From Akkermansiaceae bacterium (GTDB lineage: Bacteria; Verrucomicrobiota; Verrucomicrobiia; Verrucomicrobiales; Akkermansiaceae), in the NCBI GenBank assembly GCA_903934285.1, contig CAIZNN010000201.1, positions 1 through 40,505 of the forward strand: DNA of 40,505 nt, written 5' to 3'. This document shows positions 11,868-28,808 of this stretch, piece by piece. A program made the position numbers and the translations under genes. The notes beneath the pieces are model-generated. The model had not been told where the DNA came from. It worked only from the letters and a program-made list of their open reading frames with translations, and ran no database searches. The first letter of the stretch is position 1, and each line of letters begins with the position of its first letter.

Positions 11868-13690
11868 GATTCCGTGAAGAACTCGACGCCCTTCGAGGCG
11901 AACGTGCCGAACAGAGCGTTGCGGTCGAGATAGCGGTTACCCTTTTCGCAGGATGTCTCCGGAGCGAATAGGCAGGCGTGGCAACTTGCGCCGTGGATGC
12001 CGCGACCGTCGCCGGTCGGCGGGTGCTCGGAGCAGAGCGGGTCCGAGCCACAGATTTTCAGGGCTTCGAGTGCCTGGTGAATCTGGCGCCCCAGGCTCGT
12101 GGGATCGCCAAGCTGGACGAGTCCGCCGAGCGTCCCCTCGCTGTCGGAGGCCGCGGTGTAGAGGAGGATGCCGGCCATCGGCCCGTGATCCTCGCCGGGT
12201 TGGAGACAGTAGATGCGCTCGCGGATGCTGGCGGCAGTGTAGCCGCACTCCAGAGCAATCTGGCGCATCAGTGCATGGGACAGCGAATGGATGATCACAT
12301 AGCGCATGCCGGGGAAATGATCTCCTGGCGGGTTTTGATTGCGCATGGCCCGCCACACCTTGTGGGCAGCCAAGAACTCGGCTTCAAGGCGTTTCACCTC
12401 CGGCTTAGCCTCCCACGCTTGGAGTGCCGTCTCGTTGAACCTAACGAAGATCCCCTCGCCGCGGACTTCCGAGGCAGGCAACCAAGTGGGACTTTGCCTG
12501 CACAGCGGTGTCTGTCGGTCGTCGTTTTGGAGGTCCACTTCGGCGAAGTCACCCTTTGACTCCAGCCGGGTAAAGGCGATTAGAGTCCGCACTTCCCGCA
12601 ACACCTCCACGAGTGTGGTCTCACCAAACAGATGCTCGTATCCCAACGGGGCGGCGATCCGCCGTGCCCGGAATTCATCCGTGGCGGGCAGCGGCGTCGT
12701 GGTTGCCAGCAACTCCCATTCGGGAATCTTCAAATCGGAGGATTCTCCAACTCTGGTGCCCGTGCCTGCCAGCTTGGTTTGGATGGCGGCCCATACCTGC
12801 TCGACAGAAATGCCGATGAATGCGGGGAAATTCTGCGGCAGGAGCGCCCATTTGGCCACTTCAAGGGACGGCAAATCCTTGAGCTTCACCCAATGCTTCT
12901 CGATGAGCAGGCCGAGTTTGTCAGTGGCCCGCGGAATAGTCAGCGCGGACATCACGATGGGAAACCAACTGTTGGATGCGCCCAGCAGGATGGTCTTGGC
13001 CGTCTCTTTGCAACCCTTGGGATCGTTCATCCGCAGATGCGGGTGATGACCGCGGCATTGGATCTTGAACTCGTCGGTATCGAAGGCATCCGCCATGCGG
13101 CGGTCTTTCTTGCAGGTCTCGCACTTGATGATGATGTCGGAGGCGTCGCCCGCCACCCCGAATTCCCGGATGCTCAGGCGTGCGCCATTGCAGGGCTTGG
13201 TTTGCTTATGGACAAACTCCACCCACGGGAAATCCGATAGATGTCCCTCCCGGCAGGCCAGCAGGAAACGAACCGGCAGAACCGTGGGCGGTCGCTGGGC
13301 CTTGCAATTGTGATGGACATAGCGGGTCCGATCCGGCCGATAGGGGTCCTGAACCAACTGGAAGTGGCCGGAATCGATGGTACCCAGCAGCGAACAGAAA
13401 GGACAGCGCAACCACCGCGGGAAAGGCGCGACGGGCACTCCCTTGGCTGCCGCGGTGGGATCGTTATCGTCATCGAACGTGACCGGCGGCAGCAAGAGTT
13501 GGCGCACTTGCGGCCCCATTCGCTCCTGCACGGCCGCGAGCAAGCGCTCCTCGGAGATTTCCTGGCACTGATGCGTGTCCCAGTCATCGAGCCCAAGGAT
13601 CAGGGCCGACATGTTGGGAAGGTCCATGATCGCGCCCACACCGAATGTGTAGATCAACTGGCTGGGTCTGAGTTCTCCGAGTTCGTTCAT
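11864..13690 (-). CDS. drmB: DISARM protein DrmB (DUF1998)
   Basis: A 608-residue protein that begins MNELGELRPSQLIYTFGVGA, the usual DrmB opening, with GAIMDLPNMSALILGLDDW. Zinc-binding Cys groups are seen in RCPFCSLLG with HHNC, in KCETCKKD, and in the C-terminal CGSDPLCSEHPP and SCHACLFAPETSC. The DUF1998 domain occupies roughly 440-600, with IIHSLSHALMRQIALECGY and GILLYTAASDSEGTLGGL. In DISARM, DrmA and DrmB form a complex that binds DNA with a 5' overhang; DrmB is the non-helicase subunit. It is coupled by ATGA overlaps to both drmA upstream and drmC downstream. Length is normal for the family. Confidence 0.95.
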   Translation of the reverse strand: MNELGELRPSQLIYTFGVGAIMDLPNMSALILGLDDWDTHQCQEISEERLLAAVQERMGPQVRQLLLPPVTFDDDNDPTAAAKGVPVAPFPRWLRCPFCSLLGTIDSGHFQLVQDPYRPDRTRYVHHNCKAQRPPTVLPVRFLLACREGHLSDFPWVEFVHKQTKPCNGARLSIREFGVAGDASDIIIKCETCKKDRRMADAFDTDEFKIQCRGHHPHLRMNDPKGCKETAKTILLGASNSWFPIVMSALTIPRATDKLGLLIEKHWVKLKDLPSLEVAKWALLPQNFPAFIGISVEQVWAAIQTKLAGTGTRVGESSDLKIPEWELLATTTPLPATDEFRARRIAAPLGYEHLFGETTLVEVLREVRTLIAFTRLESKGDFAEVDLQNDDRQTPLCRQSPTWLPASEVRGEGIFVRFNETALQAWEAKPEVKRLEAEFLAAHKVWRAMRNQNPPGDHFPGMRYVIIHSLSHALMRQIALECGYTAASIRERIYCLQPGEDHGPMAGILLYTAASDSEGTLGGLVQLGDPTSLGRQIHQALEALKICGSDPLCSEHPPTGDGRGIHGASCHACLFAPETSCEKGNRYLDRNALFGTFASKGVEFFTES

Positions 13691-16600
13691 GGCTGGTCAT
13701 TGGGGTTGGCGGAAACACGCAGGCCGGTAGTGTTAGGATCAAGAATCAGGTTCACCGTGCCTTCGACATCGCGGAGACTGTTCAGACATGTGAACTCCTC
13801 CCAATCCCCGGCTCCCGGCTCCTTGAGAAGACCGATCACTCCGCCCGGTCCATCCTTGTAGCCGAGCGCGTAGTCGTGCTGGTTGTGGACGAGACTGAGC
13901 CACTTGTCGCGACGCTCATCCAGCATCTTTCGGACGAGGATGCCGACATCCGGATCTCCGGTTGCCTTCTCCGCCCGGTCGATGATGCGTTGCATGATCC
14001 AAGGCATGTCAGGGTCTGTATCGGAAAGTTTTCCCGCGTCCTCGTTGGCATTGAGATGATGGTCCTGCAAGCGCATCAGGCCGACAAGAATGCCCGCCAA
14101 GCCACGCTTGAGCGCCGGGGCCGAAAACGGCGTCACCGAGAGCGCCTCAACGTGTTTGTAAAACGTATCGTGGTAGTGCTCGAAGGTTTCGTAATGGGAA
14201 AGATCCCGTGGACGTGCCCAGTTGAAAACGGTGACCACAAGCCCCGGGCCACGATTGGATCGGCCGACGCGGCTGCTGGCCTGGATGTATTCCGAGGTGG
14301 TCTTGGGTTGGCCGGCCACCACCATCAGTCCCAGACGTTCGATGTCCACACCCACCGATATCATGTTGGTGGCAAGCATCACGTCGTAGGGCCGCGGGGC
14401 CGGGCGGTTGCCGGCTTTGCGGTCGACCTCACGCTGGGCATCATGTGCCATGTCAAACACGGTCTCCAAGCGTTCGAGGATGCCGGGAATATCGGTCCCT
14501 GACTTGCGGGAAGTTAGCTCTTCAACCGAGCCCTGCCAGATGCGGCGTTTGGCAAGACCGCGCTCGTCGGCGTCGCGCAGGCGGTTGCGGATATCATCCT
14601 CCACCAGGCGGCGGGTGCCGGCGAGTTCGCGGATGGAATTGAAATAACCTGCCAGGGTCATCCATGGATCGGCGAGGTTGTCGTATTTCTCGTAGAGCAC
14701 TTGGGCGGCACCCATGAGCGCCGTGTACACCCGGATGATGGCCACTGGATAGCGTCGGCCAAGCGCACAGATGCCGAGATAGCGGCGGCCGGGATACTGC
14801 TCACCGGCACGACGGCGCAGCGCGAAGAAACTGTCATCAATGGACGTACCCTGGGGCGGAAATACCTCCACCTTGCGGAGGAATGTTTTCTTAATTTGGT
14901 CACCGGCCCTGCGGATCGTGGCGGTGGAGGAGACCACCTTGGGGCGGACGCGCTTGCCGTTGACCGTCCAGGTGCAGAGTTCATCCACAGCGGTTTCGTA
15001 GAGCGCCACCATCGAACCAAGCGGTCCGCTGATGAGGTGAAGCTCGTCCTGGATGATGAGATCCGGCGGACGGAGAGGTGAGTGCTCTTGGCGCTTGACG
15101 CCAGACTGCCCGTTGCGTGCCGGATGGTTACCGGTGTCATCCTTCTCCACCTCCGGGGAAAGAAAGCCATGGCGCACGCACAACCCGCTGACCTGTCCGA
15201 ACAAGTGTTGCACCTCACCCTTCCATGGCATCTGGGCGAACTTATCCACCGTGGCGATGAGCAGCGATGGTGGCCGCCGATAGATTTCCTCGTCCACCAC
15301 CATCACAGGCAGTCCCTCCTTTGGGGCTTTTGCCTCGCTGAACTCACAGCCACCGGTGGCATCACTGCAATAGGTCACGCAGCGACCGATCTCGCTGGGA
15401 GCCTCATAGACCTTGATGTGGTGTTCGCGGATCTCCCGTCCGCACCACGGGCAGGAAATGAGCTGATGGGGAGTGCCACGGACGGTGGGGCGCCCGCCGG
15501 CATGACTCTGGCGCAGAGACTCCGCGGCCGAACTCAGACTGTTGGGTGTGGCCTTGGATCCCACCCACAGACCGAGGCGGAACGGCACCGTGCCCCACTT
15601 GCCAATATCCGTCCGGCGGATCATTTCACAGGCGCAGATCAGGGCGGCGGCGCGCTGGAATTGTTGGAGCGTGAGCAGACGCAGGGTGTAGCGCATCAGC
15701 ACCGCGATGCCGTGATCGCCGCGGCGACCTTCAATCTCACCTTGCAGGCGGCGCAGAGCCAGCGTGTAGGCGGTGAGACCCAGATACGCTTCCGTCTTGC
15801 CACCGCCGGTGGCGAACCAGAGCAAATCGGCCACGGCATCGGTTTCGTGACAGCGGTCCTCGTGGTCAAGTTGGGTGAGGCCTGGCAGATTGATGATGAC
15901 GAAGGCGAGCTGGAACACGCGCCAACTCCGGTTCCGCGGGATGTCGAGCGGATCGACCGGCGCACCCGGCTGGAGTTCTTTTTTGCGGACTTGCCGCGAA
16001 TAGGTCGAGCGCAGCCGTTGCTGCCACATCGCCCGGTTGGCAAAACGGAATGCCTCTTCCGCCAGCGTACCCGTGGCAATCAGGTCGATGCCCTCCCGCA
16101 GCCTGTCACAGGCGCGGCGGCAACTGGCAATGGCACGCGCCGCAGCGTCCTGGTGGTGCTGTAGGCGCAGTGCTGGGTCTGCGGGCTTGAGCGCCTCACG
16201 GCAGATCCAGTTGCCATAAGCGGTGTGAAGTTGGTCGAGCGAGGCGAGCAAGTCGGCCTTTGGCATTTCCGCCAATTCCTTCATGTCGAGCACCACCCCG
16301 GCGATATCCGGGTTGTCATTCGTATCGGGCGGTGTCTGTTGTTCCACCTCGGCCTGCGGAATGAACTCCGTCTCCACCGCGGTGGCCCGCACGGCATCCG
16401 GCTGCGGCAGCGTGGCGTGGACCGCACAGCCATGGCCGACGGCAAATTCCGGGCGGAATCGATAGAGCATTTCCAGGGTCTCCGATTCCTCGCGGGTCAT
16501 GGCATCCATGCGGGAAAAATCCCGCTGCGCGTCGTGGCGTTGGAGAAACACCGGGCGTGCCGGACGGCCTGCTGAACGAGCGCGGATCTTCGGCTGGAAC

Positions 16601-17217
16601 ACCCAGGCCTCGTCCTTTTTCCTGTCCTGCTTCGGCGCGATATTGCGCAGGAACACCGTCACCAGCCAACCATGGCCGTTCTTGCGCACCTTGCCTTGCA
16701 GCACCACCAGCGCGTCATTTGTGGAATCCGGCTCGTAAGGTCCGAATAGACCTGCCTTGAGTGGAATGACGTAGGGTTCCCCTATATGCGACTCGCGCTT
16801 CCAAACAAGAGCCGGCTCACCATTGAGCTTCTTGACCTGCCGCTCGCTCTTGACCCGCCGATAGCGACCCCACTCACTCTCAATGACGATGGCCTCCTCG
16901 GTGCCCTCCACCATGAAACTCATGCCGATGGAGTTCGGGAAAAACGAGTCCTTGGCGGACGTCGAGGCGTCGGTGCTCCCCACTTCTGGATCTTCTTTTC
17001 CGTCCGTGCCAAGACGGTCCATCACCTCTCCCTCAACCACCGCCGACATCGGGGCCAGCAGTCCGACGAGATAGCGCCCGTAGGCATGATCCTCGCGTTG
17101 GTCGAGTTCCTCCTCCGGCCCTTCGGCGGGGCCTAGCAAATCCTTGACCACCATCGCGGTGAGTTCATCGCGGATGGCGTGGGGCGTGGGCGGATTCAGT
17201 GTTGCCAGTGTCTGCAT
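13687..17217 (-). CDS. drmA: DISARM protein DrmA, superfamily 2 helicase
   Basis: An 1176-residue helicase. Walker A is FATGGGKTEAY near residue 471, the DExH box is IIQDELHLIS near 724, and motif VI is QASSRVGRSNRG near 984. A zinc-ribbon-like insertion lies near 589-620 (SCPWCGREI, then CVTYCSDATGGC). About 450 residues precede the helicase core, as usual for DrmA. The C terminus includes SVTPFSAPALKRGLAGIL, a family hallmark. DrmA provides the ATP-driven motor of the DrmAB core that loads on invading DNA. The drmB start overlaps its stop by ATGA; the PIN gene ends 42 bases before its start. No frameshift or missing motif is seen, so it should be functional. Confidence 0.95.
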   Translation of the reverse strand: MQTLATLNPPTPHAIRDELTAMVVKDLLGPAEGPEEELDQREDHAYGRYLVGLLAPMSAVVEGEVMDRLGTDGKEDPEVGSTDASTSAKDSFFPNSIGMSFMVEGTEEAIVIESEWGRYRRVKSERQVKKLNGEPALVWKRESHIGEPYVIPLKAGLFGPYEPDSTNDALVVLQGKVRKNGHGWLVTVFLRNIAPKQDRKKDEAWVFQPKIRARSAGRPARPVFLQRHDAQRDFSRMDAMTREESETLEMLYRFRPEFAVGHGCAVHATLPQPDAVRATAVETEFIPQAEVEQQTPPDTNDNPDIAGVVLDMKELAEMPKADLLASLDQLHTAYGNWICREALKPADPALRLQHHQDAAARAIASCRRACDRLREGIDLIATGTLAEEAFRFANRAMWQQRLRSTYSRQVRKKELQPGAPVDPLDIPRNRSWRVFQLAFVIINLPGLTQLDHEDRCHETDAVADLLWFATGGGKTEAYLGLTAYTLALRRLQGEIEGRRGDHGIAVLMRYTLRLLTLQQFQRAAALICACEMIRRTDIGKWGTVPFRLGLWVGSKATPNSLSSAAESLRQSHAGGRPTVRGTPHQLISCPWCGREIREHHIKVYEAPSEIGRCVTYCSDATGGCEFSEAKAPKEGLPVMVVDEEIYRRPPSLLIATVDKFAQMPWKGEVQHLFGQVSGLCVRHGFLSPEVEKDDTGNHPARNGQSGVKRQEHSPLRPPDLIIQDELHLISGPLGSMVALYETAVDELCTWTVNGKRVRPKVVSSTATIRRAGDQIKKTFLRKVEVFPPQGTSIDDSFFALRRRAGEQYPGRRYLGICALGRRYPVAIIRVYTALMGAAQVLYEKYDNLADPWMTLAGYFNSIRELAGTRRLVEDDIRNRLRDADERGLAKRRIWQGSVEELTSRKSGTDIPGILERLETVFDMAHDAQREVDRKAGNRPAPRPYDVMLATNMISVGVDIERLGLMVVAGQPKTTSEYIQASSRVGRSNRGPGLVVTVFNWARPRDLSHYETFEHYHDTFYKHVEALSVTPFSAPALKRGLAGILVGLMRLQDHHLNANEDAGKLSDTDPDMPWIMQRIIDRAEKATGDPDVGILVRKMLDERRDKWLSLVHNQHDYALGYKDGPGGVIGLLKEPGAGDWEEFTCLNSLRDVEGTVNLILDPNTTGLRVSANPNDQP

Positions 17218-17259: not shown

Positions 17260-17760
17260 TCAGCCGCCAGACCATTTTTCAATACGAGCGATGCACTCTG
17301 CACGAGGCAGAAAACCACCGCTTTCCAAGATCTTTGTTAGCGCTTGCACGGCGAGCAAAGGGACGATCATGCGACTGGCAACAAGCTCATCCATGACCCA
17401 CAATGTCCCTTTGACCTCCAGCTTATCAGCGAGGGCTTTCTTGCGGAGAGTGCCGTCACCGGTCAGCAGCACGGCATCAAGTTTTCGGGCTAGAAGAGCC
17501 ACGGACGCATCAGGGATGCTCACGCCCCATGTTCGAGCCAGTTTTTCAGCAGCGCTCCATTCATCAGCAGCCGTATCGGTGATCATCAATGCTCCCTGGG
17601 AAACCAGCTCATGGACCGCAGATTTCTGCTCCGGGCCGGTGATCTCGGTCAAGACGAGTGAAGTCGTGTGAATCTCGTAACCCTGAGCAAACCACGCCTC
17701 TAGCAATCCACCGTGAAAAAGGTCGATTAGCAAGTTCGCGTCATGCACCAGAATTCTCAT
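17260..17760 (-). CDS. PIN-domain protein, putative RNase toxin
   Basis: A 166-residue PIN domain. The acidic cluster is visible: VHDANLLIDLF with Asp7 near the N terminus, LVLTEITG with a Glu, SIPDASVALLARKL with the central Asp, and LLTGDGTLRKKAL with the last Asp. These fit a metal-dependent nuclease, and the layout resembles VapC-like or DUF3368-type proteins. It follows the XRE-ImmA/IrrE gene by 12 bases, a pairing known from toxin-antitoxin-like modules with a COG2856 partner. It precedes drmA by 42 bases, so it is probably on the drmABC transcript. Whether it acts as a toxin guarding DISARM or as an effector is inference. Confidence 0.88.
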   Translation of the reverse strand: MRILVHDANLLIDLFHGGLLEAWFAQGYEIHTTSLVLTEITGPEQKSAVHELVSQGALMITDTAADEWSAAEKLARTWGVSIPDASVALLARKLDAVLLTGDGTLRKKALADKLEVKGTLWVMDELVASRMIVPLLAVQALTKILESGGFLPRAECIARIEKWSGG

Positions 17761-17772
17761 GAGGTAATGGAT

Positions 17773-18858
17773 TCAGGCAAATGACTCCTTGAAAATCTGG
17801 CGGAATCCCTCCAGCGGAACTCCCAACAAAGCCGCCCCGCGGGAACTGCTCACGATGCCTTCCGCGACACTTTGCAGCACCATCTGCCGCATCCGGCCAT
17901 GGCTCTCGATGTCCTCGAAGACGTCATCTCCCGGTTCACCGACCTCCTTTTTCCTCCAACCGCGCTTGCCTGCCTGCATGAAGAAGCGCTCGTAAACGGC
18001 CTGGCTGATGAGTTCCAGTTTGGACGCGCGATACATGATCGCCATCATGGAAACGCCGAAATACTGCTTCAACTCGAGTAATTCACCCAAGGAAATGCCA
18101 CTGCGTCGGCCACCGAACATCGTCGTAAAATGCTCCTCGGGCATGAGAAACGACGACGCGAACGGTTTCACCAGAGCCTCCTGTTTCGCCTCGGGCAGGT
18201 TTACCGGAATCGGCAGCACCACATGCCCCAGCTCGTGGGCCAGCGTCATGCGCTTGCGCGGCACGTGCCGGCGAAGCCAGCTAGCGACGACGATGATTGG
18301 CTCGCCGTTGGCCTCACAGGAAAACCCGTCGAAGGCGGGATCGTCCGTCTCCACCTCATGGACTTTGATCCCTTTCAGCTCGATGAACTGCTGCAGGTTG
18401 GGAATCGGATCGGTTCCCAGGCTCCACTTGCTCCGAAGTTCCAGGGCGAAGCGCTCCACATCCTCCGCCCGGGTCAACTCCGCACCTGCGAATGGCGGTG
18501 CATAGGACATTCTCGCGTTGAGCAACTCCTCCAGCTCCAAATATCGTGAGAAAAAATCGCGGGATTTTTCCTCAATCGCCTGCCGCCTGCCAACTCCCAG
18601 GCTGGTCTTGCGCCGGAAACTGAGACCGGAAAACTCCACCTCGTAGGACCGGAAAAAGAAATCCACAGGCTGCTTCAGAACCTCCACCAGACGCGCGAGA
18701 ACCGCCCCATCCGGCATCGTCTCACCCTTCTCATAGCGGGACAGCATGGTGTGTGACGGGGCCCCTCCCAGGGCTCCGGAAAGCTCACGAAACGAAAGCC
18801 GGGCGATCTTTCGGGCCTGGCCAAGGCGACGGGAAAAAGTCTGGAGCACGTCAGTCAT
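17773..18858 (-). CDS. XRE helix-turn-helix / ImmA-IrrE metallopeptidase regulator
   Basis: A 361-residue regulator. The N-terminal HTH (about 8-70) has LGQARKIARLSFRELSGALG and SRYEKGETMPDG. The second domain is an ImmA/IrrE (DUF955) peptidase with LAHELGHVVLPIP near residue 209, so HExxH is intact, followed by FASSFLMPEE, the usual downstream block. In the family, such proteins either are repressors or cleave a repressor on DNA damage or phage signals; having both domains in one chain suggests that self-contained switching is possible. The start codon at 18858 lies 6 bases from a good -10 box, with a palindrome covering the promoter, consistent with autoregulation. The PIN gene follows 12 bases later. 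Confidence 0.92.
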   Translation of the reverse strand: MTDVLQTFSRRLGQARKIARLSFRELSGALGGAPSHTMLSRYEKGETMPDGAVLARLVEVLKQPVDFFFRSYEVEFSGLSFRRKTSLGVGRRQAIEEKSRDFFSRYLELEELLNARMSYAPPFAGAELTRAEDVERFALELRSKWSLGTDPIPNLQQFIELKGIKVHEVETDDPAFDGFSCEANGEPIIVVASWLRRHVPRKRMTLAHELGHVVLPIPVNLPEAKQEALVKPFASSFLMPEEHFTTMFGGRRSGISLGELLELKQYFGVSMMAIMYRASKLELISQAVYERFFMQAGKRGWRKKEVGEPGDDVFEDIESHGRMRQMVLQSVAEGIVSSSRGAALLGVPLEGFRQIFKESFA

Positions 18859-18954: not shown

Positions 18955-18987
18955 TTTGGCCGGGTTTGGCCGGGTTTGGCCGGGTTT
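18955..18987. repeat. Three tandem TTTGGCCGGG decamers
   Basis: Three perfect 10-base units (18955-18984) and the start of a fourth, about 60 bases upstream of the leaderless promoter. The 10-base period is close to one DNA turn, so the sites would face the same side of the helix. Related GGGTTTGTCCGGGTTT sequence lies near 19070. Confidence 0.8.
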
Positions 18988-19107: not shown

Positions 19108-19281
19108 TCATGCCTCACGCCCTTCATTTCCGGCCAGGTTAGCGGATAGCACGGTCAGATCGGTACCGGACCCATTCAAACCGACCAGCACGGTGAATGG
19201 AGCGAGACTTTCCGCTTCCGCGGCCGGCATGCGGAAATCCACCAGCGACTTGAAGTTCTCAATGTGCAGGCGGGTGATCAT
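19108..19281 (-). pseudogene. Truncated N-terminal fragment of an AAA ATPase
   Basis: A 57-residue fragment beginning MITRLHIENFKSLVDFRMP, the standard start of an AAA15/AAA21 (OLD/Septu-like) ATPase, running to FTVLVGLNGSG. Walker A should continue with KS/T, but the frame reads TDLTVLSANLAGN and stops 17 residues after GSG. So the protein breaks inside the nucleotide-binding loop and cannot bind ATP. It lies on the same strand as the ATPase-HNH pair, 54 bases after the HNH stop. It is not simply a copy of the ATPase at 19983-21221, whose N terminus is different. It is most likely the relic of a second ATPase-based defense gene lost by deletion. Confidence 0.75.
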
Positions 19282-19335
19282 GGGGCGGTTCAGGTTGAAC
19301 GTGAGCGGGCCGGAGCGAGGCAACTTGGGCTAAAA

Positions 19336-19986
19336 CTAAACCAGGTTGACATACGGATCTGGAACCGGCCGAGGGATGACGGTCAGGTCGCCTCGACCAT
19401 CCGCCGTCCAACGCTCCACGGCGCGAGCCAGGAGGGGTGCTACCTCGCGAAGCCCTTCGAGCGTCAAAAGATTGCGCAGGTGTTTGTCATACCATTCCCA
19501 CCGCAGTTCCAGCACGCGAAGACCTTGCTCCAGATCCAGCCGTTCCAGAGTCAACCGTGCCGCATCCTGGCGCTCGGCCGGCACGCCAACAGGGCGGAGC
19601 AGCAGGGAAGGCAGATCAATTTGAAACCAGTCGTCACCCACCTCAAAGGGATCTAGCAGTTGGTCGTCCAGAGTTCGCTTTCTGCTGTTCAGCGCCCCAT
19701 CCACGAAGCGAAAGTTATCCCACTCGTAAGCGAGATCCGGCGTGTTGTTGGTCTTGCAGGTGCTCCAGGAAATGAAGTGGTCCACCTGACCGTCATGGAT
19801 ATACATGGCGTAATAGCCGCAGCGTCCTTCAAAACCCCGGCGCAGGTCCGGACGGAAGGGCGACCACAAGTCTCTGGGGCGGTCAGGCAAGGTTTGTTGG
19901 GTTTTGAGCCAATCCCGTCCCGCTTGGCGGCAGGTGGCGTCAAATGCCGCGGGTTCCGGACGAATCGGCGACGGGACACTAATCAT
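19336..19986 (-). CDS. HNH nuclease, Septu PtuB-like
   Basis: A 216-residue protein with an HNH-type core at residues 56-105. RCGYYAMYI supplies a Cys, GQVDHFISW has His70 preceded by Asp, AYEWDNFRF has Trp89 and Asn91, and ALNSRKRT has Asn100 and Lys103. This DHF...YEW.N...N..K arrangement is that of PtuB and similar HNH proteins. The second zinc cysteine pair is incomplete, as only Cys56 and Cys77 are visible in the core. The C-terminal half is helical with LERLDLEQGLRVLELRWEWY. It is coupled by an ATGA overlap to the ATPase before it. Expected role: DNA or tRNA nicking once the ATPase releases it. The ascription to Septu is by arrangement, not by demonstrated homology. Confidence 0.8.
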   Translation of the reverse strand: MISVPSPIRPEPAAFDATCRQAGRDWLKTQQTLPDRPRDLWSPFRPDLRRGFEGRCGYYAMYIHDGQVDHFISWSTCKTNNTPDLAYEWDNFRFVDGALNSRKRTLDDQLLDPFEVGDDWFQIDLPSLLLRPVGVPAERQDAARLTLERLDLEQGLRVLELRWEWYDKHLRNLLTLEGLREVAPLLARAVERWTADGRGDLTVIPRPVPDPYVNLV

Positions 19987-21221
19987 CGCACACCTCCTGT
20001 CGCGACCAGCCAGCGCGGCCAGAACGGGTCTGAGTTTGCCAGGGTCCGCTCCAGTTGGGCCTGGATGTCGGCGACGTTGCTACCGTCCCGCTCCCCCTTG
20101 ATCCAGCGGTTCGCCGCGATCAGCGCTTGCTCCGCCTCCTTCGAGTAGCCGCTTTTCATGTCAAAGGCAGGCGAGCGCAGCCACTCCACGATGCTGCCAA
20201 AGCGCGCCCACTGCACTGTTTCCAAGCGCACCTTGCCTTCGGGCGTCAGCTCCAGATTGAAAAGCCGGTCGCGTGATTCATCAAAGAGCGTCTCCACCGA
20301 GGCCAGGACAAACGGGGCGTGGGTGGTGGCGATCACCTGCACCTGCGGTTCGCCTGCCGACTGGAGCAAGCGGTTGAGCACCACCAGCACGGCGGGCAGA
20401 ATCGTCCGCTGCCATTGTGGGTGCAGGTGGGCTTCGACCTCATCCCACAAGAGCACGATCCGGCGGGAACATTCCCTGCCGCGCAGCTCCGCCGCCGCCT
20501 GATGCTCCGCCCAAGCCCACACCAGCATGTAGGCTAGGGACAGGATGCGTTTCATGCCAGCCGATGCATGGGGCAGCGGCACCGCCCCGTAAGGCATCTC
20601 CAGCGTGGGCACGTCCCGCACGCCCATTTCCGGGACACGCACCGATCGACCCGGCACCAGCGGTGACTCGTGGCCGCCGGGCGACAGCTCGGCCAGCACC
20701 TCCCGCAGGGTATTGAAGGCACCATTGGCCTTCAGGCTCCAGGTTTCCCAGTCTTCGAGCAAGCCACGGCAAATCACCGTGTCGTTCTCATCGCGCTGCC
20801 CTTCCCAAAGGTCTTTTTTGCTGAAATGGAATGCTTCCGGCCTGTCTCCGCCGTTGCGCTCAGGGTCCCAGAGCGAAAACCCGCCGTCGATCCGTGCGTA
20901 AATCACCAACCCGGGGCTGGGTGGGCGGCCTGGCGGCGGCGCGGACCAGTCCAGAACATCCCGGCGGTAGTGGCAGGCCACTTCCGAGGTCGGGCCGCCC
21001 TTGCCATGGACGTGGAAACTCACGCTCGCATCGTTCACACCGGCCGCAGGATGGATCTTGCGCCCATCAGTCCAGCAACGCGTGAGCGCCCACCATGCCA
21101 CATCCAGCAGGAAAGTTTTGCCGAGGCCATTGTCGCCGGTGATGAGGTTGAGCCTCTCGCCGAACTCGAAGTCGAGCGCGGGAGCCGGTCCTAGGTTTTT
21201 AAGGGAAAGAGTTTCGAGCAT
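19983..21221 (-). CDS. AAA ATPase, Septu PtuA-like
   Basis: A 412-residue ABC-type/AAA21 ATPase. Walker A is ITGDNGLGKTFLLD near residue 35. The signature region is PHASAGMKRILSLAYMLVW near 215, with A-S-A-G in place of LSGGQ. Walker B is IVLLWDEVEAHLHPQW near 260, and the switch region is VIATTHAPFVLAS near 300. This is the arrangement of OLD-type and PtuA ATPases without a TOPRIM domain. The HNH gene follows with an ATGA overlap, giving an ATPase-nuclease pair like PtuA-PtuB. It begins 40 bases after the drmMI stop, so it may be read through from the drmD-drmMI transcript. All ATPase motifs look intact. Confidence 0.87.
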   Translation of the reverse strand: MLETLSLKNLGPAPALDFEFGERLNLITGDNGLGKTFLLDVAWWALTRCWTDGRKIHPAAGVNDASVSFHVHGKGGPTSEVACHYRRDVLDWSAPPPGRPPSPGLVIYARIDGGFSLWDPERNGGDRPEAFHFSKKDLWEGQRDENDTVICRGLLEDWETWSLKANGAFNTLREVLAELSPGGHESPLVPGRSVRVPEMGVRDVPTLEMPYGAVPLPHASAGMKRILSLAYMLVWAWAEHQAAAELRGRECSRRIVLLWDEVEAHLHPQWQRTILPAVLVVLNRLLQSAGEPQVQVIATTHAPFVLASVETLFDESRDRLFNLELTPEGKVRLETVQWARFGSIVEWLRSPAFDMKSGYSKEAEQALIAANRWIKGERDGSNVADIQAQLERTLANSDPFWPRWLVATGGVR

Positions 21222-21261: not shown

Positions 21262-24200
21262 TCAAAACAACTCCGCTTGTGCGGGAGGTAGGAGGTCGAG
21301 TTGGGTGGCGTGGACGCCAGGCGAGGTGTTCGGCTTCGCCGCTTTGGCCGCGGCTTTCTTCTTGCTCTTCTTCTCGTGCAAGCCGGCGGCGAGTTCTTCG
21401 GCGTGGCGCTGGTGGTTGAGCGCGAGCAGGCGGTCGAGGACTTCCCGGCGGGCGGACTCGCTGAGGGTGTAGCGCTCGCCCTGTTTTGTGGCGTGGAAGC
21501 CGTGACCCAAGTCCAAATCGCTCCAGCCGTAGGCTGCGGCCACGGCTTGATCCATCTCCATATGCAACGACCGCAATCGCGCGATGTCCTCCGACCGTTC
21601 GCTCCGGTCGTGGAAACGGTTGTAGATTCCTGTCAGCCCGATACTAAGGGCTGTTGCGATACTCCTCCGAACGCTAAGGTAATTGTTTGCAATTGGAGAA
21701 ATTTCCAACTCCGCTTGGGCGGTGGCATCTCGTGGTAAAGGAAATGTCAAGAAACACTCTGAAGGTGAGTAACTGAGAATCGAGAGATTCGTGGTGCCGT
21801 AACGCCATGCCCATGCTTGATGAAGAGACGACTGCAGGGCAGCAAGCATGAGATTCGAGTCTGTGGTGAAAACTGTGAGTCGGTCGGAAAACACCCATTC
21901 CTTATCTACCGATTCAATGATGATGTGCGGTGTTACGCGCGATAGAACAAGCGCGCGGGTAACTGGGACTAATGCCGCTTCTAAGGCCCACCGCCACTGG
22001 CCAAAGTGCCACCAAGACTCACGAAGTTTTTTATTCCACGCCGTTGGCTTCGTCAGACCGTCACGATATGGTTTCACGTTTTGTTCGACCCATTCAAGAC
22101 ACTCCGGAAAATCCTGCGCGACTGGTCTCTCCTGATCTTTGCATATTGCCTCGCGGGATAGCGGCCAGTCGTAGAGTGTGACGATGTACTCATTCGGTTG
22201 CATATCGGGCGAACTATTCACCAGAGCTCCGGTCAGATACGGTCTCAGGACACGCTTGTAATGGGGCTTGCGGCTCAGTAACTCTGTCGCCCACTCATTA
22301 GGTGTGACAAACCCTTCTCCGCCAAGATTGATTCCCACGAATGCAATCCCCTCGTTCAATTTGAGCGGTTCTGGTGCGAGCGTCGTAGAGTTGGCGGGAC
22401 TGAGCGAGGCATCAATTCCATCAACCATCTGATCATCCACCCAATAGCCACCCCGCCACTCTCCTATACGAAGGCATACCATCGCGTAAAACACGGTGGC
22501 TTGGCCCGGCCATGGACTGCTTGGGCGAGCTCGAAAAATGCTATGTCCACGGCTGAGAATCTGCTCAAATCCGACTTCCCTAGCATCACCTTGGCCAAGA
22601 GAGTTTGTTACAATTAGACCGGCTGCGGCAGGCGTCTTGCAAAGCATCTCTGCGCGGAGCAGAAAATAAGCACACAGGTCTGCTGAGCCTCTAACTCCTG
22701 TGATGCCGCGAGCGATTCCTTGGACAAGGAGCGCGCGATACTCAGCTCCAAATGCATTGTTCAATTTTGTTCCACCCATGAATGGCGGGTTGCCGACAAA
22801 GCCGTCGAATCCGCCTCGAACGAATACTTCAGAATATTCTATCGCCCAGTGGAATGGCCTACGCCCATTGAGAGACCTGCCGGCAGCACGAGCAAGTTCC
22901 GAACTTGGGCTCGAAGTTTCAATTCCCGCGTCAGTGTCATGCTTCATCAGGTGCTGGACCTTCTCTGCTTCTTCGGCTCGTTGTTCCTCGTAGGCGTTGC
23001 CGTCGAGGCCGCGCAACTCAAAGGCGATGAGGCAGTCTGCAATCGCTTTGACCTTGGCGATGGCGTTCTCTGCTTCGGCGTGGAGGCGATTCTTGGTTTC
23101 GATTTGGATATTATCGTTAGATGGAAGTACTTCGAGAGCGCTGCGCTTGGCAGACGCTTCCTCCACATAGCGGAAAAGATTCATCGCTGCCAGAGGCACA
23201 TCGACGTAATCATCCTTCTTGCCCCTGAGAGTGAAGTTTTCTATCTGCTGGATAGAACTGACGCCGAGCAGGGAATCCCCGCACTTGAGGGCGTGGTCGA
23301 GGAAGGTGAACGGGCGGTCTTTTTGCAGGGTGATGAGCCAGAGGGAGAGCTTGGCCATTTCCACGGCCATCGGGTTGATGTCCACACCGTAAATGCAACG
23401 GTCGGCGACGTAGCGGCGGGCGAGGGCGAGTCGCTCGGCGGGGTCATTTGGTAGGAGTCGTTCACCCGCGGCACCGGTGGAGAACTCGCCATCCGGGGTG
23501 ATCAACATGGCACCCGCGTGTTCCTTTTCCGCGATCTCCCATGCCTCGCAAAGGCGTTCGGCGAGGTAGCGGCAGACTTGGACGAGTAAGGCCCCAGAGC
23601 CCATGGCGAGATCGCAGATTTTTAGAGCGAGGATTTCCTTGGGCGACCGGAGTTTCCACTCCGCCTCTGGCAAGCCCTCGGCGGGGCCGATGTAAACGAG
23701 GGGTTCGACGGTGTGCTTGACAATGGGTACGGTGAGAGATGGCGGCGTATAGTGAGTGCCGCTGCTGCGGCGGTCGGTGCCAGCGGTGACAAATACCGAT
23801 GTGGGACGAATGACGGCGAGGCGGCCAAAGTCGTCGGATCGAAGCAGGCCGGCGAAGGGTTGGAGGCGGCGGGCAAGGCGCGGGTTCTGGCCGCAGGCGA
23901 GAAGAAGAGAATGATCGAGGATCGTGGATCGAAGATCTTGGATGGCGGATGAAGAGGCGGCGGGGCCGCTGGGAGCATTGGCTTTGGCTTTGCCGCGGGC
24001 TTTGGGTTTGCCGTAACCGAGGTCGGATTCGAGAGCTTTGGCGCTGCGGCCGGTGGCGTCCGCTAGAAAGTCGATGAGGGCGGCGGGGGCTTGGCTGTAT
24101 TTCACCGGGTGGGTTGGAAACTCGACGATGCTGGTGCCATCGTCCGCCACCTTGCGTTCGTCGGATAGAATTTCCTCGGTGGCGTCGGAGTCGATGCCGG

Positions 24201-25614
24201 CGAGTTTTTCCAGTTGGGAAAGCGGAATTTCCGGTTCGTTTTTGCCGTCGAGGCCGAGGGTGACTTCGGTGGCGCGGCGGGCGGTGTGATCGAGCAAGCC
24301 TTCGTAAACGTGGCCGATTTGTTCGACATCGAGGGCGCGGAACGAGATGCGCCGGGTTTCCGCGGGACCGCCGCCGGGGACTCGCACGCGGAGGAGTTGG
24401 AGGGCTTCCAGTAGATGGAGGACCACGCGGTTGTTCACCGGCAACGGGTGGGCCGGGGTATTGCGCCAGCCGGTGTTCATTTCCCGGCCTTCGAGGAATG
24501 GGTAGCGGTCGGGATTGAAGAGCGAGCCGCCGTAGGCAGGCAGGCGCATGGCCTCGTGCTGCACACCGCCATGGACAGCGCGGAAGGTGGAAAGCAGACG
24601 TGACCAGGCATCGTGGCGGCGTTCGAGGACTTCCTCGCCCTGCTGGTCGGCGCGTTCGCGCAAGATTTCCCGCAGGGTGGACACGGCATAGTGCTGGTCG
24701 AAAAGCGGATCTCCTAACAAGAGCAAGCCGCGCTCCTCTGCGGAGAAGAGGAACACGAGCCGCATCATTACGGTGAGGGCGGCATCGTAAATTTCCTTTT
24801 CCGGGAGGCCGGAGAGGACGCTGCGGCCGGAGTCTTCATCGATCTGATCGAAGGCCTGGACGAGCATTTCCACGGCGCGGCGGACCTGGCGGCCAAGCTG
24901 GTCGGTGACTTCCTGCTGGTCCTTGGCGCTCTCCGCGTAAAGGGCGGCAAGGGTTTCCCCGGCAGCCACGCCAAAGAAGCGGCGGAGGCAGAGCAGACTG
25001 TGGAAGGCCCGCAGGGTGATGGGCTCCTGCATCCAGATGTCCGCATACCACGAGGCGAATCCGGTGGTTTCGCCGCGGGGGGCGTAAACAATCATCCAGT
25101 GCTCGCCATTGGTCACCAATCCGAGCGGGACACCGGTGGCGTGGAGCAACTCGGTCATGCGGGTGGCCGGGGAGGCTTTCCAAACCTTGCCGGCCACGGG
25201 CTTTTCCAAATTCTGGGCGGGCGGATAGGTGACGACGAGAAGCTGCGGGGTGGTGTCGGCATCCGCGGTGCCGCCTTGCGACCGGCGCAGGACGAGGTCC
25301 GGGCGGAGGGTCTCGCCGAAATGCGGCTGGGTGGCTTCGAGACCCGCGGGAATGGATTGACCCTCGGCAATGTAGTCGGCCGGCCATTCGAGGAGGTTTT
25401 CCAGGACGTGGCGGATCCACGCGGTGTGGACGTGGAGCAGCGGCCCGCCACGCTCAAGCCAGTCTTCGTAGGACTCGCGCAAGGCCGCGGCGCGGGTGGG
25501 ATCGCGCAGGTCGAGCCCCTGCGGGAACACGCGCAAGAGCACGGGCATGGAAAGAAACGGGCCGGAGGATTCGACCAGCGAAAGCCATTCGGTGTGGTGG
25601 CGGGCGGGGGTCAT
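21262..25614 (-). CDS. drmMI: DISARM adenine methylase DrmMI
   Basis: A 1450-residue N6-adenine methyltransferase. The family's THYTPPSLTVPIV segment lies near residue 620, the SAM-binding motif is CDLAMGSGALLVQV near 670, and the catalytic motif is GNPPFMGG near 941. The C-terminal half would carry the target-recognition domain. The first 250 residues look like a type IIG nuclease fold: LRPDLVLRRS, then QLLVVTYPP, then ATGVPLGLVTNGEHWMIVYA. The E-x-K expected at the second block is replaced by VTY, so the domain is probably inactive. In DISARM the methylase marks host DNA as self. It shares a 4-base overlap with drmD. PglX of BREX is similar in outline, but no BREX partner genes are present. 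The distal half has visibly lower GC than the proximal half. Confidence 0.93.
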   Translation of the reverse strand: MTPARHHTEWLSLVESSGPFLSMPVLLRVFPQGLDLRDPTRAAALRESYEDWLERGGPLLHVHTAWIRHVLENLLEWPADYIAEGQSIPAGLEATQPHFGETLRPDLVLRRSQGGTADADTTPQLLVVTYPPAQNLEKPVAGKVWKASPATRMTELLHATGVPLGLVTNGEHWMIVYAPRGETTGFASWYADIWMQEPITLRAFHSLLCLRRFFGVAAGETLAALYAESAKDQQEVTDQLGRQVRRAVEMLVQAFDQIDEDSGRSVLSGLPEKEIYDAALTVMMRLVFLFSAEERGLLLLGDPLFDQHYAVSTLREILRERADQQGEEVLERRHDAWSRLLSTFRAVHGGVQHEAMRLPAYGGSLFNPDRYPFLEGREMNTGWRNTPAHPLPVNNRVVLHLLEALQLLRVRVPGGGPAETRRISFRALDVEQIGHVYEGLLDHTARRATEVTLGLDGKNEPEIPLSQLEKLAGIDSDATEEILSDERKVADDGTSIVEFPTHPVKYSQAPAALIDFLADATGRSAKALESDLGYGKPKARGKAKANAPSGPAASSSAIQDLRSTILDHSLLLACGQNPRLARRLQPFAGLLRSDDFGRLAVIRPTSVFVTAGTDRRSSGTHYTPPSLTVPIVKHTVEPLVYIGPAEGLPEAEWKLRSPKEILALKICDLAMGSGALLVQVCRYLAERLCEAWEIAEKEHAGAMLITPDGEFSTGAAGERLLPNDPAERLALARRYVADRCIYGVDINPMAVEMAKLSLWLITLQKDRPFTFLDHALKCGDSLLGVSSIQQIENFTLRGKKDDYVDVPLAAMNLFRYVEEASAKRSALEVLPSNDNIQIETKNRLHAEAENAIAKVKAIADCLIAFELRGLDGNAYEEQRAEEAEKVQHLMKHDTDAGIETSSPSSELARAAGRSLNGRRPFHWAIEYSEVFVRGGFDGFVGNPPFMGGTKLNNAFGAEYRALLVQGIARGITGVRGSADLCAYFLLRAEMLCKTPAAAGLIVTNSLGQGDAREVGFEQILSRGHSIFRARPSSPWPGQATVFYAMVCLRIGEWRGGYWVDDQMVDGIDASLSPANSTTLAPEPLKLNEGIAFVGINLGGEGFVTPNEWATELLSRKPHYKRVLRPYLTGALVNSSPDMQPNEYIVTLYDWPLSREAICKDQERPVAQDFPECLEWVEQNVKPYRDGLTKPTAWNKKLRESWWHFGQWRWALEAALVPVTRALVLSRVTPHIIIESVDKEWVFSDRLTVFTTDSNLMLAALQSSLHQAWAWRYGTTNLSILSYSPSECFLTFPLPRDATAQAELEISPIANNYLSVRRSIATALSIGLTGIYNRFHDRSERSEDIARLRSLHMEMDQAVAAAYGWSDLDLGHGFHATKQGERYTLSESARREVLDRLLALNHQRHAEELAAGLHEKKSKKKAAAKAAKPNTSPGVHATQLDLLPPAQAELF

Positions 25615-28600
25615 CGTTTTGCTCCTTTCTCAAGCTGGGCGACGGCACGGTAGGGCACGAGGAAGGTCACGGCGAGCGGGAAGAGTCGCGGCTGCGGATT
25701 GGCATAACGGCTGCGGAGGTGGGAGGCCTCGCGTTCGAGTTCCGCGGGAATTTTCTTGAGGCGATCCCGGAGGCAGTCGATGTCGAGCTTGCGCTGGTTC
25801 TTTTCGTTCTGATCGTCGAGGCTCAATTGCAGTTGGGGATCATCCTCGTCAGACAGCGTATTCCTGATGGATTTGCTCAAATCCTCCATGATGGCGGTGA
25901 AGCTGGCCACTTCGCTATCGGCACGGTCGTCCAGAAATGTTTGGAGGTTTTTGGTGCGGTCCACCATGCGGGCGTCGAGGGACTTGATGAGCGGGTCCTC
26001 GATATTCTTCCAGAGGTTCTTGAGGGTGTCCTCGATGAAGCCTGGCGCGGCGGCGTCTTCCGCGGCGGCGATGGCGTTGTTGGTCTCGCCGACGTTCATG
26101 CGCTTGAAGCGGCCTTCCTGAATGATGCCGCCCGCGGTGATGATTTCCTCATGGACGCGCCGGTTGTCGCCACCCAGGACGAGGAGGCGGCCGTGGATAA
26201 TTACGGCGGGCGTTTGCAGGGCGCTGTCCGGCACCATGCGGGCGGTGAAGCGCTGGAGCTTTTTCGAGCGGTCCATTGACCAGACTTCCGCACGCAGCAG
26301 GCGCAGGCACATCTGGACGAGCCGGTGGTTGAGGTGGCACAGGACGACATCATCGCGGCCGGTGGCCAGCGAGTGATCGAACACGATGGGGCGGACCCGA
26401 TGGGTGTGAGGATGGGCGAGTCCCTCGGCACAATGGGACCATGAACCGGTGAGCGGCGGAAGCGTCCAGGCATCCTTGATGCCATTCACACTTGCAGGAA
26501 TGAGGGGTGGCTGGCCGGCAAGGGCAAGGCCGGTTTCAACGACACTGCGGATGCGCTCGGGCGTGAGGTGGAGATCGCGCTTGGTGTCGTGGAGTTGGCC
26601 GGCGAGTTTTTCGAGTTGCTCGCGGAGCTTGCGCTCGAATTTCAGGAGTGCTTTGGCGGGTGCCGCATCGGTTTCGGCACGGGCGGTGTCGAGCGTGCGG
26701 CGACGGCCCATCATGGCTTCCTCGACCTGATCGGCGATGACCGGGCCGACTTTCCCAAGGTCTTCGCGGATGGCCTCGACCTTGATGGCGGCGCGGAGAA
26801 GGAATTCGAGGTCGCCTTCAAGGTCGCCCGGGGCCTGGCCGGGTTTGGTGGCATCGAACCCTTTGCCGACGAAGTGGAAGATGTGGACCTCGTCATTTTT
26901 CTGCCCGTGCCGATCCACCCGCCCATTCCGTTGTTCCATACGGTTCGGGTTCCAGGGAATCTCATAATGGATGAGGCGGTGGCAGTGGTTCTGGAGGTTG
27001 ACGCCCTCGGAAGCGGCGTCAGTGGCAAGCAGGATGCGGATCGACGACTCAGAGGGATCGGACTGGAAGGCAGCCTTGATTTTCTCACGTTCGTCCAATG
27101 GCAGGCCTCCGTAGATGGTGAGCAGACGGTCATTGGCGGCGAGACCTTCCGCGGCGAGGATGCCGTGGAGCCATTTTTGGGTGGCACGGTATTCGGTGAA
27201 AATGATGACACGCTCGTTAGACCATTTTCCGCCGGGCTTGAGGGTTTTGTGAAGCCAGGCGATGAGTTCCTGCGCCTTGGTGTCGGCCTGGGTCGCGGCG
27301 GCGGCCCAGTGGCGGAGGTTCTTTAGGATGGCGGCCTCCTCGCTGGTGAGCGGGGCACTGTGGCGCGAGGCTGTCTCGACTTTTTCCGCTGTGTCCTCTT
27401 CGTATTCCTCGTCGTCCTGGTATTCGTCGTCCGCGCTGAGGCGCTGCATCCATGAGTGGCCAGTGGACGGGGTGCCGGCGCCCACGGATTTCGCATGTTT
27501 TTCGAGGGTGGAGGCGAAGGCGGCGGGGCAGGAGAACAGGCGCTTTTTTAGGAGTTTGAGCACGAACTCAGCGGCGAAGCGCTGGGTGGGAGTGGCAGCG
27601 GACTTGGCGCGCAGCTCGGTGTACCGCTGGAGATTGCGGTGCACCTGGCGCTCGGCTTCCGTGTAGGGAACCTCGATGTGTTTCACCAAGCGTTCGGCGA
27701 AGCGCCGGGAACCATCCCATTTCAGCTTCAACTCGGACTTGAGCCGACGGACCATCACGGCTTCGAGCTGTGTGCGGTTGGGCGGCACGGCACGAGCAAA
27801 GCGCTGGTTGTCGAGGAGCTCCAGAAGGGCGGAAAAGCTCTCCTTGTAGCCGTTGTGGGGGGTGGCGGATAGGAAGAGCTTGTGCTCGAAGAACGGCGCC
27901 AGACTGCGGATGGCTTGGGTGCGCTGGGAATCGAGGGCGTATTTCCCGCGGCCCGAGGGGGACACGTTATGGCACTCATCAAGAATCATCAGGTCGTACG
28001 GCCGCGGGTAGGCGGCCTCGTCACCCGCGGGCAAGGTTTCCCGGAACTGGCGCATCGGGCGCTCACGCTTGAGGAAGTCGATGGAAGTGATGAGGCGCGG
28101 GAAGTGGGACCACGGGTTGACGTGGATACCGCGTTTGCGGCGCAGCTCGCCGAGGAGATCGCGGTCAACGATGCGGAATTCGAGGCCGAACTTGTCGCGC
28201 ATTTCCTCCTTCCACTGCACCTGAATGGACGACGGGCACACAATCAGGATGGTGCGGGCACGGTGGCGGAGGATCAATTCCTGCGCCACGAGGCCGGCCT
28301 CGATGGTTTTTCCGAGGCCAACGTCGTCGGCGATCAGGAGGTTCACCCGGGGCATCTGGAGGGCGCGGACGACGGGGTCGAGCTGGTAATCGTCCACGTC
28401 GATGCCGGAGCGGAACGGGGCTTGGAGCGCCTTGTCGTCGGCCTGGGACACCGATCCCCAGGTGACTGCGTCGAGGAAGGCGTCGAAAATGCGAGGGGCG
28501 TCGAATTCCTCAAGCAGGGGCAGGCCGGATTTTTCAGGACATTGGACGCCCGGCTCCATTTCCCAGATGACTTGGAGTTCCTCGCCCAAGCCCTCATCCT

Positions 28601-28808
28601 CCACCGACGACAGACTGACCAGATGCTCTTTTCTGTTGCCGCTGGCAGCAAATTCCGCCGGCAGGTCGGAAATCCTGACATCAGAGACGACAAAGGGTCG
28701 CTGGCGGACATAGACAATTTGTCCTGGCTCTGGTGTGGCGACGATCATCTTGGCGTCATGCTTTTCTAGCAAAGCCAAAATGTCAGGCACAAAACGCCGA
28801 AAGTACAA
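25611..28808 (-). CDS. drmD: DISARM SNF2-like helicase DrmD
   Basis: A 1065-residue SNF2/Rad54-class translocase that defines class 1 DISARM. Motif I is ADDVGLGKTIEAGL near residue 162, motif II is ILDECHNVSP near 278, and motif III is LSATPHNGYKE. In the C-terminal lobe are VIIFTEYRATQKWL, LLATDAASEGVNLQNHCHRL, and motif VI NRMEQRNGRVDRHGQ. The C terminus from about 690 is helical and family-specific. Start at 28808 or at a second ATG at 28748 (MIVATPEPGQIVYVRQR), which fits the folded N terminus better. It is the first gene of the drmD-drmMI-ATPase-HNH block; its upstream region is shared with the divergent plus-strand pair. All helicase motifs are intact. Confidence 0.94.
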   Translation of the reverse strand: MYFRRFVPDILALLEKHDAKMIVATPEPGQIVYVRQRPFVVSDVRISDLPAEFAASGNRKEHLVSLSSVEDEGLGEELQVIWEMEPGVQCPEKSGLPLLEEFDAPRIFDAFLDAVTWGSVSQADDKALQAPFRSGIDVDDYQLDPVVRALQMPRVNLLIADDVGLGKTIEAGLVAQELILRHRARTILIVCPSSIQVQWKEEMRDKFGLEFRIVDRDLLGELRRKRGIHVNPWSHFPRLITSIDFLKRERPMRQFRETLPAGDEAAYPRPYDLMILDECHNVSPSGRGKYALDSQRTQAIRSLAPFFEHKLFLSATPHNGYKESFSALLELLDNQRFARAVPPNRTQLEAVMVRRLKSELKLKWDGSRRFAERLVKHIEVPYTEAERQVHRNLQRYTELRAKSAATPTQRFAAEFVLKLLKKRLFSCPAAFASTLEKHAKSVGAGTPSTGHSWMQRLSADDEYQDDEEYEEDTAEKVETASRHSAPLTSEEAAILKNLRHWAAAATQADTKAQELIAWLHKTLKPGGKWSNERVIIFTEYRATQKWLHGILAAEGLAANDRLLTIYGGLPLDEREKIKAAFQSDPSESSIRILLATDAASEGVNLQNHCHRLIHYEIPWNPNRMEQRNGRVDRHGQKNDEVHIFHFVGKGFDATKPGQAPGDLEGDLEFLLRAAIKVEAIREDLGKVGPVIADQVEEAMMGRRRTLDTARAETDAAPAKALLKFERKLREQLEKLAGQLHDTKRDLHLTPERIRSVVETGLALAGQPPLIPASVNGIKDAWTLPPLTGSWSHCAEGLAHPHTHRVRPIVFDHSLATGRDDVVLCHLNHRLVQMCLRLLRAEVWSMDRSKKLQRFTARMVPDSALQTPAVIIHGRLLVLGGDNRRVHEEIITAGGIIQEGRFKRMNVGETNNAIAAAEDAAAPGFIEDTLKNLWKNIEDPLIKSLDARMVDRTKNLQTFLDDRADSEVASFTAIMEDLSKSIRNTLSDEDDPQLQLSLDDQNEKNQRKLDIDCLRDRLKKIPAELEREASHLRSRYANPQPRLFPLAVTFLVPYRAVAQLEKGAKR

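Follow-up and report, generated by a model that had tools for sequence, protein, structure and literature searches.

Septu genes in the cargo interval of a class 1 DISARM operon from an Akkermansiaceae bacterium: a putative built-in second line of defence

The ATPase-HNH gene pair ptuA-ptuB, composed as in Septu, is confirmed to reside inside a complete class 1 DISARM operon on a contig of an Akkermansiaceae bacterium (the window, that is, the whole analysed stretch of 40,505 nucleotides). With slightly better than even confidence, this arrangement is read as a Septu module that has been captured in the cargo slot between drmMI and drmA, is expressed from the drmMI transcript and serves as a second-line nuclease behind DISARM.

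The pair and its DISARM operon

PADLOC recognizes drmD, drmMI, drmA, drmB and drmC at one locus, which defines class 1 DISARM. From the highest coordinate downwards, the operon and its cargo comprise:

25611..28808, minus strand: drmD, SNF2-type helicase of class 1 DISARM, 1065 aa (PADLOC PDLC02621, E 0)
21262..25614, minus strand: drmMI, DISARM class 1 methyltransferase (MmeI-like), 1450 aa (PADLOC PDLC02643, E 0)
19983..21221, minus strand: ptuA, Septu ABC-ATPase, 412 aa (PADLOC PDLC00307; AlphaFold pLDDT 91.0)
19336..19986, minus strand: ptuB, Septu HNH nuclease, 216 aa (PADLOC PDLC00348; AlphaFold pLDDT 93.5)
19150..19321, minus strand: ATPase gene remnant that encodes some 39 aa of an AAA/ABC-like N-terminus up to Walker A, followed by other sequence (from the sequence)
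18958..18987, minus strand: three tandem copies of the 10-base unit AAACCCGGCC between the cargo modules (from the sequence)
17773..18858, minus strand: HTH and IrrE-type (Peptidase_M78) regulator or antitoxin, RmrA-like, 361 aa (PADLOC RmrA, E 4.7e-47; Pfam HTH and Peptidase_M78)
17260..17760, minus strand: PIN-domain protein, 166 aa (Pfam PIN, E 7.6e-5, 23.8 bits against a cut-off of 23.6)
13687..17217, minus strand: drmA, YprA-type helicase (PADLOC PDLC02567, E 0)
11864..13690, minus strand: drmB, DUF1998 (PADLOC PDLC02583, E 7.8e-76)
11085..11867, minus strand: drmC, PLD nuclease (PADLOC PDLC02589, E 2.1e-67)

Downstream of the operon, a PD-(D/E)XK nuclease gene (PDDEXK_1, Cas4-like) is located at 7030-8172 on the minus strand.

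The preliminary description had portrayed an ATPase gene that overlaps an HNH gene by 4 bases and starts 40 bases past the end of drmMI on the same strand. The ORF coordinates bear out both the overlap (ATGA) and the distance, with all three genes on the minus strand. A promoter and terminator separating the pair from drmMI, which had been named as an observation against the proposal, were not seen in a consensus scan of the 40-base gap on the minus strand. Promoter-like sites between 16900 and 21800 numbered three in such a scan, all at or below 18915, as compared with 1.2 in shuffles. The layout supports membership of the pair in the DISARM operon, as had been proposed, and co-transcription of ptuAB with drmMI may be inferred from it, consensus scans being weak evidence.

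The Septu nature of the pair has been addressed with profiles, folds and active-site residues. The comparison with profile HMMs that had been called for returned the PtuA model PDLC00307 with E 7.7e-148 and the PtuB model PDLC00348 with E 1.7e-54, which excludes a chance similarity. General domain collections were less informative: Pfam assigned only generic AAA-type domains to PtuA and no domain to PtuB of the window, the HNH model not being reached (5 of 44 PtuB relatives matched it, weakly), while the NCBIfam retron PtuA model scored 50 bits on the window PtuA, far below its cut-off of 500, and no NCBIfam model matched the window PtuB. Searches of the PDB with single sequences found PtuA and did not find PtuB chains; with profiles of relatives, solved PtuB chains ranked first (8ee7_C, E 5.4e-6), as did solved PtuA or retron PtuAB chains for PtuA. 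AlphaFold models built with alignments of relatives were confident for both proteins. In Foldseek, the nine best PDB matches of the PtuB model were PtuB-sized chains from PtuA-PtuB entries of Septu or retrons; E was <= 0.001 for four of them, and TM-scores by query length ranged over 0.51-0.63 and rmsd over 6.5-9.7. The 28 best matches of the PtuA model were PtuA-sized chains of PtuA or PtuAB entries. A predicted structure dissimilar to PtuB had been set as grounds for abandoning the Septu assignment, and these matches do not overturn it.

Equally, the motifs noted at the outset for the ATPase are all present, with Walker A K35, Walker B D260/E261 and H301 of the H-loop invariant in PtuA alignments of 49 and 41 rows including the window protein; S220 is positioned within the likely signature motif. 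In PtuB, the HNH residues D69, H70, N91, N100 and K103 are kept in 71-73 of 74 alignment rows (H70 in 73, N91 in 72). A PtuA-family ATPase and a PtuB-family HNH protein with catalytic histidine and asparagine are thus encoded by adjacent genes on the same strand, and the pair is well supported, by sequence comparison and structural models, as a bona fide Septu module consisting of a PtuA ABC-ATPase and a PtuB HNH nuclease. A merely superficial likeness to Septu is ruled out by the concurrence of PADLOC, PDB profile and fold searches on PtuA and PtuB. Inactivity of PtuB for want of zinc cysteines is ruled out as well, as E. coli PtuB displays the same C-x-Y...H...N layout and H70 and N91 are conserved. 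The distance from the histidine to the asparagine is 16 in 66 of the 74 rows and 21 in the window, L019, L020 and L021 (L numbers denote the loci compared), so that the H70-N91 loop of the window protein carries five residues more than that of most relatives; in Septu EcB88 the H75-N91 spacing is also 16, and both residues are required for defence (PMC13096335). The longer loop as an adaptation to DISARM is ruled out, since the stand-alone L020 and L021 also possess it.

Cargo between drmMI and drmA

The interval between drmMI and drmA of the window contains approximately 4 kb of extra sequence, in which drmMI is followed by ptuA-ptuB, the ATPase remnant, the tandem 10-base repeat, the HTH-IrrE gene and the PIN gene. 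The remnant has a counterpart in L019, a DISARM locus of a verrucomicrobial metagenome-assembled genome (MAG), where it is cut slightly earlier, evidence of former cargo loss from the slot. The exact 18-base pattern of the AAACCCGGCC repeat is unique to 18958-18987 in the genome searched, which rules it out as a genome-wide motif; 20-base matches to the repeat region occur near ptuB in L019 and L021, and the tandem repeat is perhaps a footprint of recombination. The HTH-IrrE and PIN insert, which is preceded by a promoter-like site (10 of 12) at 18893-18865, is absent from L019: the window has no counterpart there for 17200-18946, and about 250 bases separate the two blocks of L019 that match the window.

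Other class 1 DISARM loci provide a comparison. The drmMI-drmA interval harbours genes in 13 of 17 such loci examined, as compared with 4 of 17 for the control interval drmD-drmMI (L120, L132, L133 and L139) and 1 of 17 for drmA-drmB (a short opposite-strand gene in L133), in a sample that is small. Six of the 17 stem from phylum genomes and 11 from plasmids. For the phylum set, 15 loci were fetched for DrmA matches in 387 genomes, and six display drmMI and drmA together; L121, L122 and L124 were left out because contig ends truncate them, and, by BLAST, L127-L131 for want of a drmMI match and L126 for want of a drmA match. For the plasmid set, 12 of 85 DrmA records were chosen among the 40 listed, and 11 were used as the order in L134 is rearranged. 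All six phylum loci carry other genes between drmMI and drmA; the plasmid loci of usual order have annotated genes there in 7 of 11 cases and none in 4 of 11, counts that rest on the gene tables of PLSDB, which are themselves incomplete. Cargo of these slots includes:

L117: AbiGi-like protein and GHKL ATPase
L118: five genes including a PDC-S39 and a Schlafen-AlbA protein
L119 and L120: a single gene each, the start of which resembles the GHKL protein of L117
L123: five genes, among them one for a Piwi-domain and one for a Schlafen-AlbA protein
L125: LmuB-like protein
L139 (Trichormus): ABC-ATPase and an annotated DUF4435 protein
L141 (Methylocystis), immediately before drmA: HTH and Peptidase_M78 protein, then a 171-aa protein

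The HTH-Peptidase_M78 protein of L141 is 26% identical to the HTH-IrrE protein of the window over 367 columns (E 1.3e-6 in a one-record search), and a pairwise search detected no similarity between the 171-aa protein of L141 and the PIN protein of the window. The drmMI-drmA interval is thus a variable cargo slot. Searched at E 0.001, the 17 other class 1 loci gave no match to PtuA or PtuB of the window, which rules out PtuAB as a usual DISARM component.

A slot that takes unrelated cargo is equally what would be expected from plain clustering in a defence island, in which an autonomous Septu would occupy a tolerant position under a shared promoter and be functionally independent of DISARM. We regard this as a rather unlikely explanation that nevertheless deserves appreciable weight, and the distribution of relatives described below bears on it from both sides. 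The ATPase remnant just downstream of the pair indicates that the slot gathers debris and might place PtuAB itself among decaying passengers, as might the PtuB of L022, another DISARM-linked copy, in which an aspartate replaces N91. Both open reading frames of the window are, however, full length with intact motifs, and the substitution rates given below speak against decay, which we hold to be very improbable.

DISARM-linked copies and the wider PtuAB subfamily

The subfamily is patchy, being found at E <= 1e-60 in 7 of 387 phylum genomes and in 5 of 384 class genomes, the window genome included in both counts; none of the other genomes of the same genus in the class set (at least 8) carries it. 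One scan of viral contigs with a single protein, in which only close relatives were detectable, returned no relative, and a viral origin of the pair is ruled out to the extent of that scan. For the analysis of neighbourhoods, 89 loci were assembled from 79 genome contigs, 4 plasmids (of 5 full-length matches) and 6 phylum loci, and 88 were analysed after L073, in which ORF calling missed ptuA, was dropped. The genome-contig loci are the best 79 of at least 531 confirmed relatives, so that the following fractions describe near relatives and not all Septu. Many of the loci examined come from MAG contigs.

Among the matches listed, 3 of the 88 loci have PtuAB within a DISARM locus or next to one. 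In L019, PtuA is 92% identical to that of the window and the gene order is drmMI-ptuA-ptuB-drmA-drmB-drmC. In L022, PtuA is 60% and PtuB 40% identical; the DISARM next to the pair is divergent, its drmA and drmB are both broken into two ORFs, and four further ORFs come between drmMI and ptuA. On the 5.2-kb contig of L028, a partial drmA comes after ptuAB. L019 and L022 belong to the same MAG, which therefore has two different DISARM loci with their own PtuAB each. In a tree of 89 PtuAs, the window, L019, L022 and L028 fall into one clade of seven (support 97/95) together with L020, L021 and L096, for which no DISARM is seen on the available stretches of 5.1, 12.8 and 21.3 kb, respectively. The grouping of the DISARM-linked PtuAs in one clade may reflect one or few captures; as the clade also contains PtuAs outside DISARM, the module has either been recruited from a stand-alone state or escaped to one. 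L020 and L021 (about 79% identical), the closest relatives listed outside DISARM, stand alone on short contigs, and the pair therefore probably works without DISARM, which favours mere clustering of an autonomous module and weighs against a direct coupling to DISARM.

The dN/dS ratio between the window and L019 is 0.11 for ptuA, 0.16 for ptuB, 0.09 for drmA and drmB and 0.21 for drmC, and in all six comparisons PtuAB remains at 0.06-0.16, with dS near saturation against L020 and L021. Both the ptuAB and the DISARM modules look maintained, with purifying selection on the pair, as is not expected of a decaying passenger. On the other hand, dS between the window and L019 is 0.40 for ptuAB (bootstrap 0.32-0.47) and thus below the 0.72 of drmAB (0.65-0.80), and the ptuAB block matching L019 takes in the 3' end of drmMI. 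The block thus seems to share a more recent common history with L019 than drmAB does, a difference to which codon usage could contribute, and the cassette may have been exchanged by itself; such independent movement would also suit an autonomous Septu in a tolerant slot. As a separate observation, drmMI of the window and L019 is 53% identical over the best stretch, while ptuA, ptuB, drmA, drmB and drmC are 78-92% identical. Positions 21640-22771 of drmMI, which cover the predicted target-recognition part, have no DNA match in L019, which makes a swap of specificity likely.

Fifteen of the 88 loci among the matches listed have PtuAB within type I BREX, where it lies downstream of a co-oriented pglX (L005, L033-L036, L058, L065, L070, L072, L074, L076, L084, L089, L094 and L095). 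In 14 of these 15, a gene that matches pglZ comes downstream of PtuAB; the corresponding 831-aa gene of L094 is unmatched by the pglZ query. In 4 of these loci ptuA comes immediately after pglX, in the others one to three genes separate the two, and PADLOC confirms PglX, PglZ, BrxC, BrxL and BrxB in BREX representatives. The pglX-pglZ interval also holds genes of the Orf5/HEC-06 type (5 loci), HEC-01B (2) or PDC-M07A (1), that is, in 8 of the 15. One BREX locus, L072:8000-11900, contains two PtuA-matching ATPase genes with a 213-aa gene between them. A further BREX-like case, L149, falls outside the 88, as do L148 and L150, in which no DISARM is seen. In one locus of the 88 among the matches listed, L031, a type I restriction subunit gene (hsdR) directly precedes ptuA.

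The remaining 70 of the 88 loci among the matches listed are in neither BREX nor DISARM, including L017 and L088, which show a weak drmD-like helicase match and no other drm gene, and L039, with a drmMI-like gene of 25% identity two genes upstream. Of these 70, 31 have a next upstream gene of opposite orientation to ptuA; in 12 the distance to that gene exceeds 150 bases, in 25 (L031 included) it lies nearby on the same strand, and in 2 no upstream gene is visible. Since this majority, L020 and L021 among them, persists elsewhere, linkage to DISARM or BREX is not needed for the persistence of PtuAB, in line with an autonomous module; the 15 loci inside BREX are, however, judged from the counts alone to exceed loose island clustering.

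The recurrence of the same PtuAB subfamily inside BREX makes a backup role or a functional coupling, both raised in the preliminary description, plausible. In a coupled system, PtuA would sense that DISARM has failed or is inhibited, for instance by an anti-restriction protein, or would use DNA intermediates of DISARM, and PtuB would be the true DISARM effector. The position downstream of a methyltransferase gene in two different systems points in this direction, as does the precedent of PARIS, an ATPase-nuclease module of which AriA senses the anti-restriction protein Ocr (as told in PMC12839542). However, close relatives stand alone, no feature peculiar to DISARM was found in PtuA or PtuB (the extra PtuB loop being common to the stand-alone L020 and L021), and PARIS embedded in Salmonella BREX did not respond to Ocr (PMC11341690); direct coupling is considered improbable. 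An equally improbable extension would regard the PtuAB subfamily as a portable 'restriction-failure' effector, placed downstream of the methyltransferase in BREX, DISARM and perhaps type I restriction-modification and triggered by inhibition or DNA intermediates of the host system.

Mechanism and comparison with known systems

In the favoured reading as a second-line nuclease, PtuAB would have entered a class 1 DISARM by capture in its variable drmMI-drmA cargo slot and, judged from the layout, would be transcribed from the drmMI transcript. By reference to the Septu family, PtuA would assemble with PtuB and keep the nuclease inactive until an infection cue frees PtuB, which could then cut nucleic acid, DNA or host tRNA, and halt the phage. 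PtuAB might thereby act as a second line behind the methylation-based DISARM, an analogy drawn from its recurrence in BREX and DISARM. Weighing against this reading are the 70 relatives outside both systems, the genes that part ptuA from pglX in 11 of the 15 BREX loci, the lack of PtuAB in the 17 other class 1 loci, the replaced N91 and split drmA and drmB of L022, the incomplete drmA of L028 and the low NCBIfam scores. The findings suggest that Septu in DISARM is a built-in second defence line and no new kind of system. Septu joins the modules taken aboard by methylation-based defence operons, with one PtuAB subfamily entering BREX as well as DISARM in the interval that follows the methyltransferase gene. 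If a coupling exists, a testable layered immune operon would be at hand, with the same nuclease module in two host systems and stand-alone PtuAB relatives as natural controls. Furthermore, the drmMI-drmA interval suggests itself as a place to seek uncharacterised defence genes.

Septu of E. coli (PDB 8ee4/8eea) shares with the pair the composition of ABC-ATPase and HNH nuclease, the C-x-Y...[IV][DE]H...N layout and the fold; the window PtuA differs by its length of 412 aa versus 465 and by a middle section that does not align to 8ee4 by sequence, and the pair further differs by the H-N loop of PtuB with its five additional residues and by its position inside DISARM. Homologous ATPase and HNH effectors are the PtuA and PtuB of type I-A retrons (Ec78/Eco7, Ec83), the PtuA of which, with 550 residues, is about 140 residues longer than that of the window; no reverse transcriptase was found among the operon genes scanned with PADLOC and Pfam, and the locus is thus not assigned to the type I-A retrons. 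As for activity, Septu EcB88 needs the Walker residues of PtuA and cleaves tRNA-Tyr (PMC13096335), and a review lists Septu with detection of phage SSB and DNA cleavage (PMC12904381).

Among embedded modules, the OLD-ABC and HNH dyads in BREX (Rakesh and Krishnan, PMC12839542) resemble the pair most directly as ATPase-HNH genes inside a methylation-based system, and are very probably of the same kind as the 15 BREX PtuAB loci. That paper proposes ATPase-nuclease modules in BREX as backup effectors, and neither Septu nor DISARM was matched in its main text. The window exhibits the layout of such an effector, an ATPase-nuclease dyad between drmMI and drmA. PARIS (AriAB) is similarly an ATPase-nuclease module within the BREX locus of Salmonella, and differs by its TOPRIM nuclease and by BREX as the host system (PMC11341690). 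DISARM itself has been described with auxiliary genes (PMC9142583), and ShdA of Shield is an embedded accessory defence gene with about 70 homologues in DISARM-like operons, and differs as an RmuC-domain protein restricted to Pseudomonas and without an ATPase-HNH pair (PMC10270631). No report of Septu inside DISARM was recognised in full-text literature searches, mostly at the level of listings. OLD-ABC and HNH dyads in BREX (PMC12839542) and ShdA in DISARM (PMC10270631) are already in print, and Septu in DISARM is a variation on that theme.
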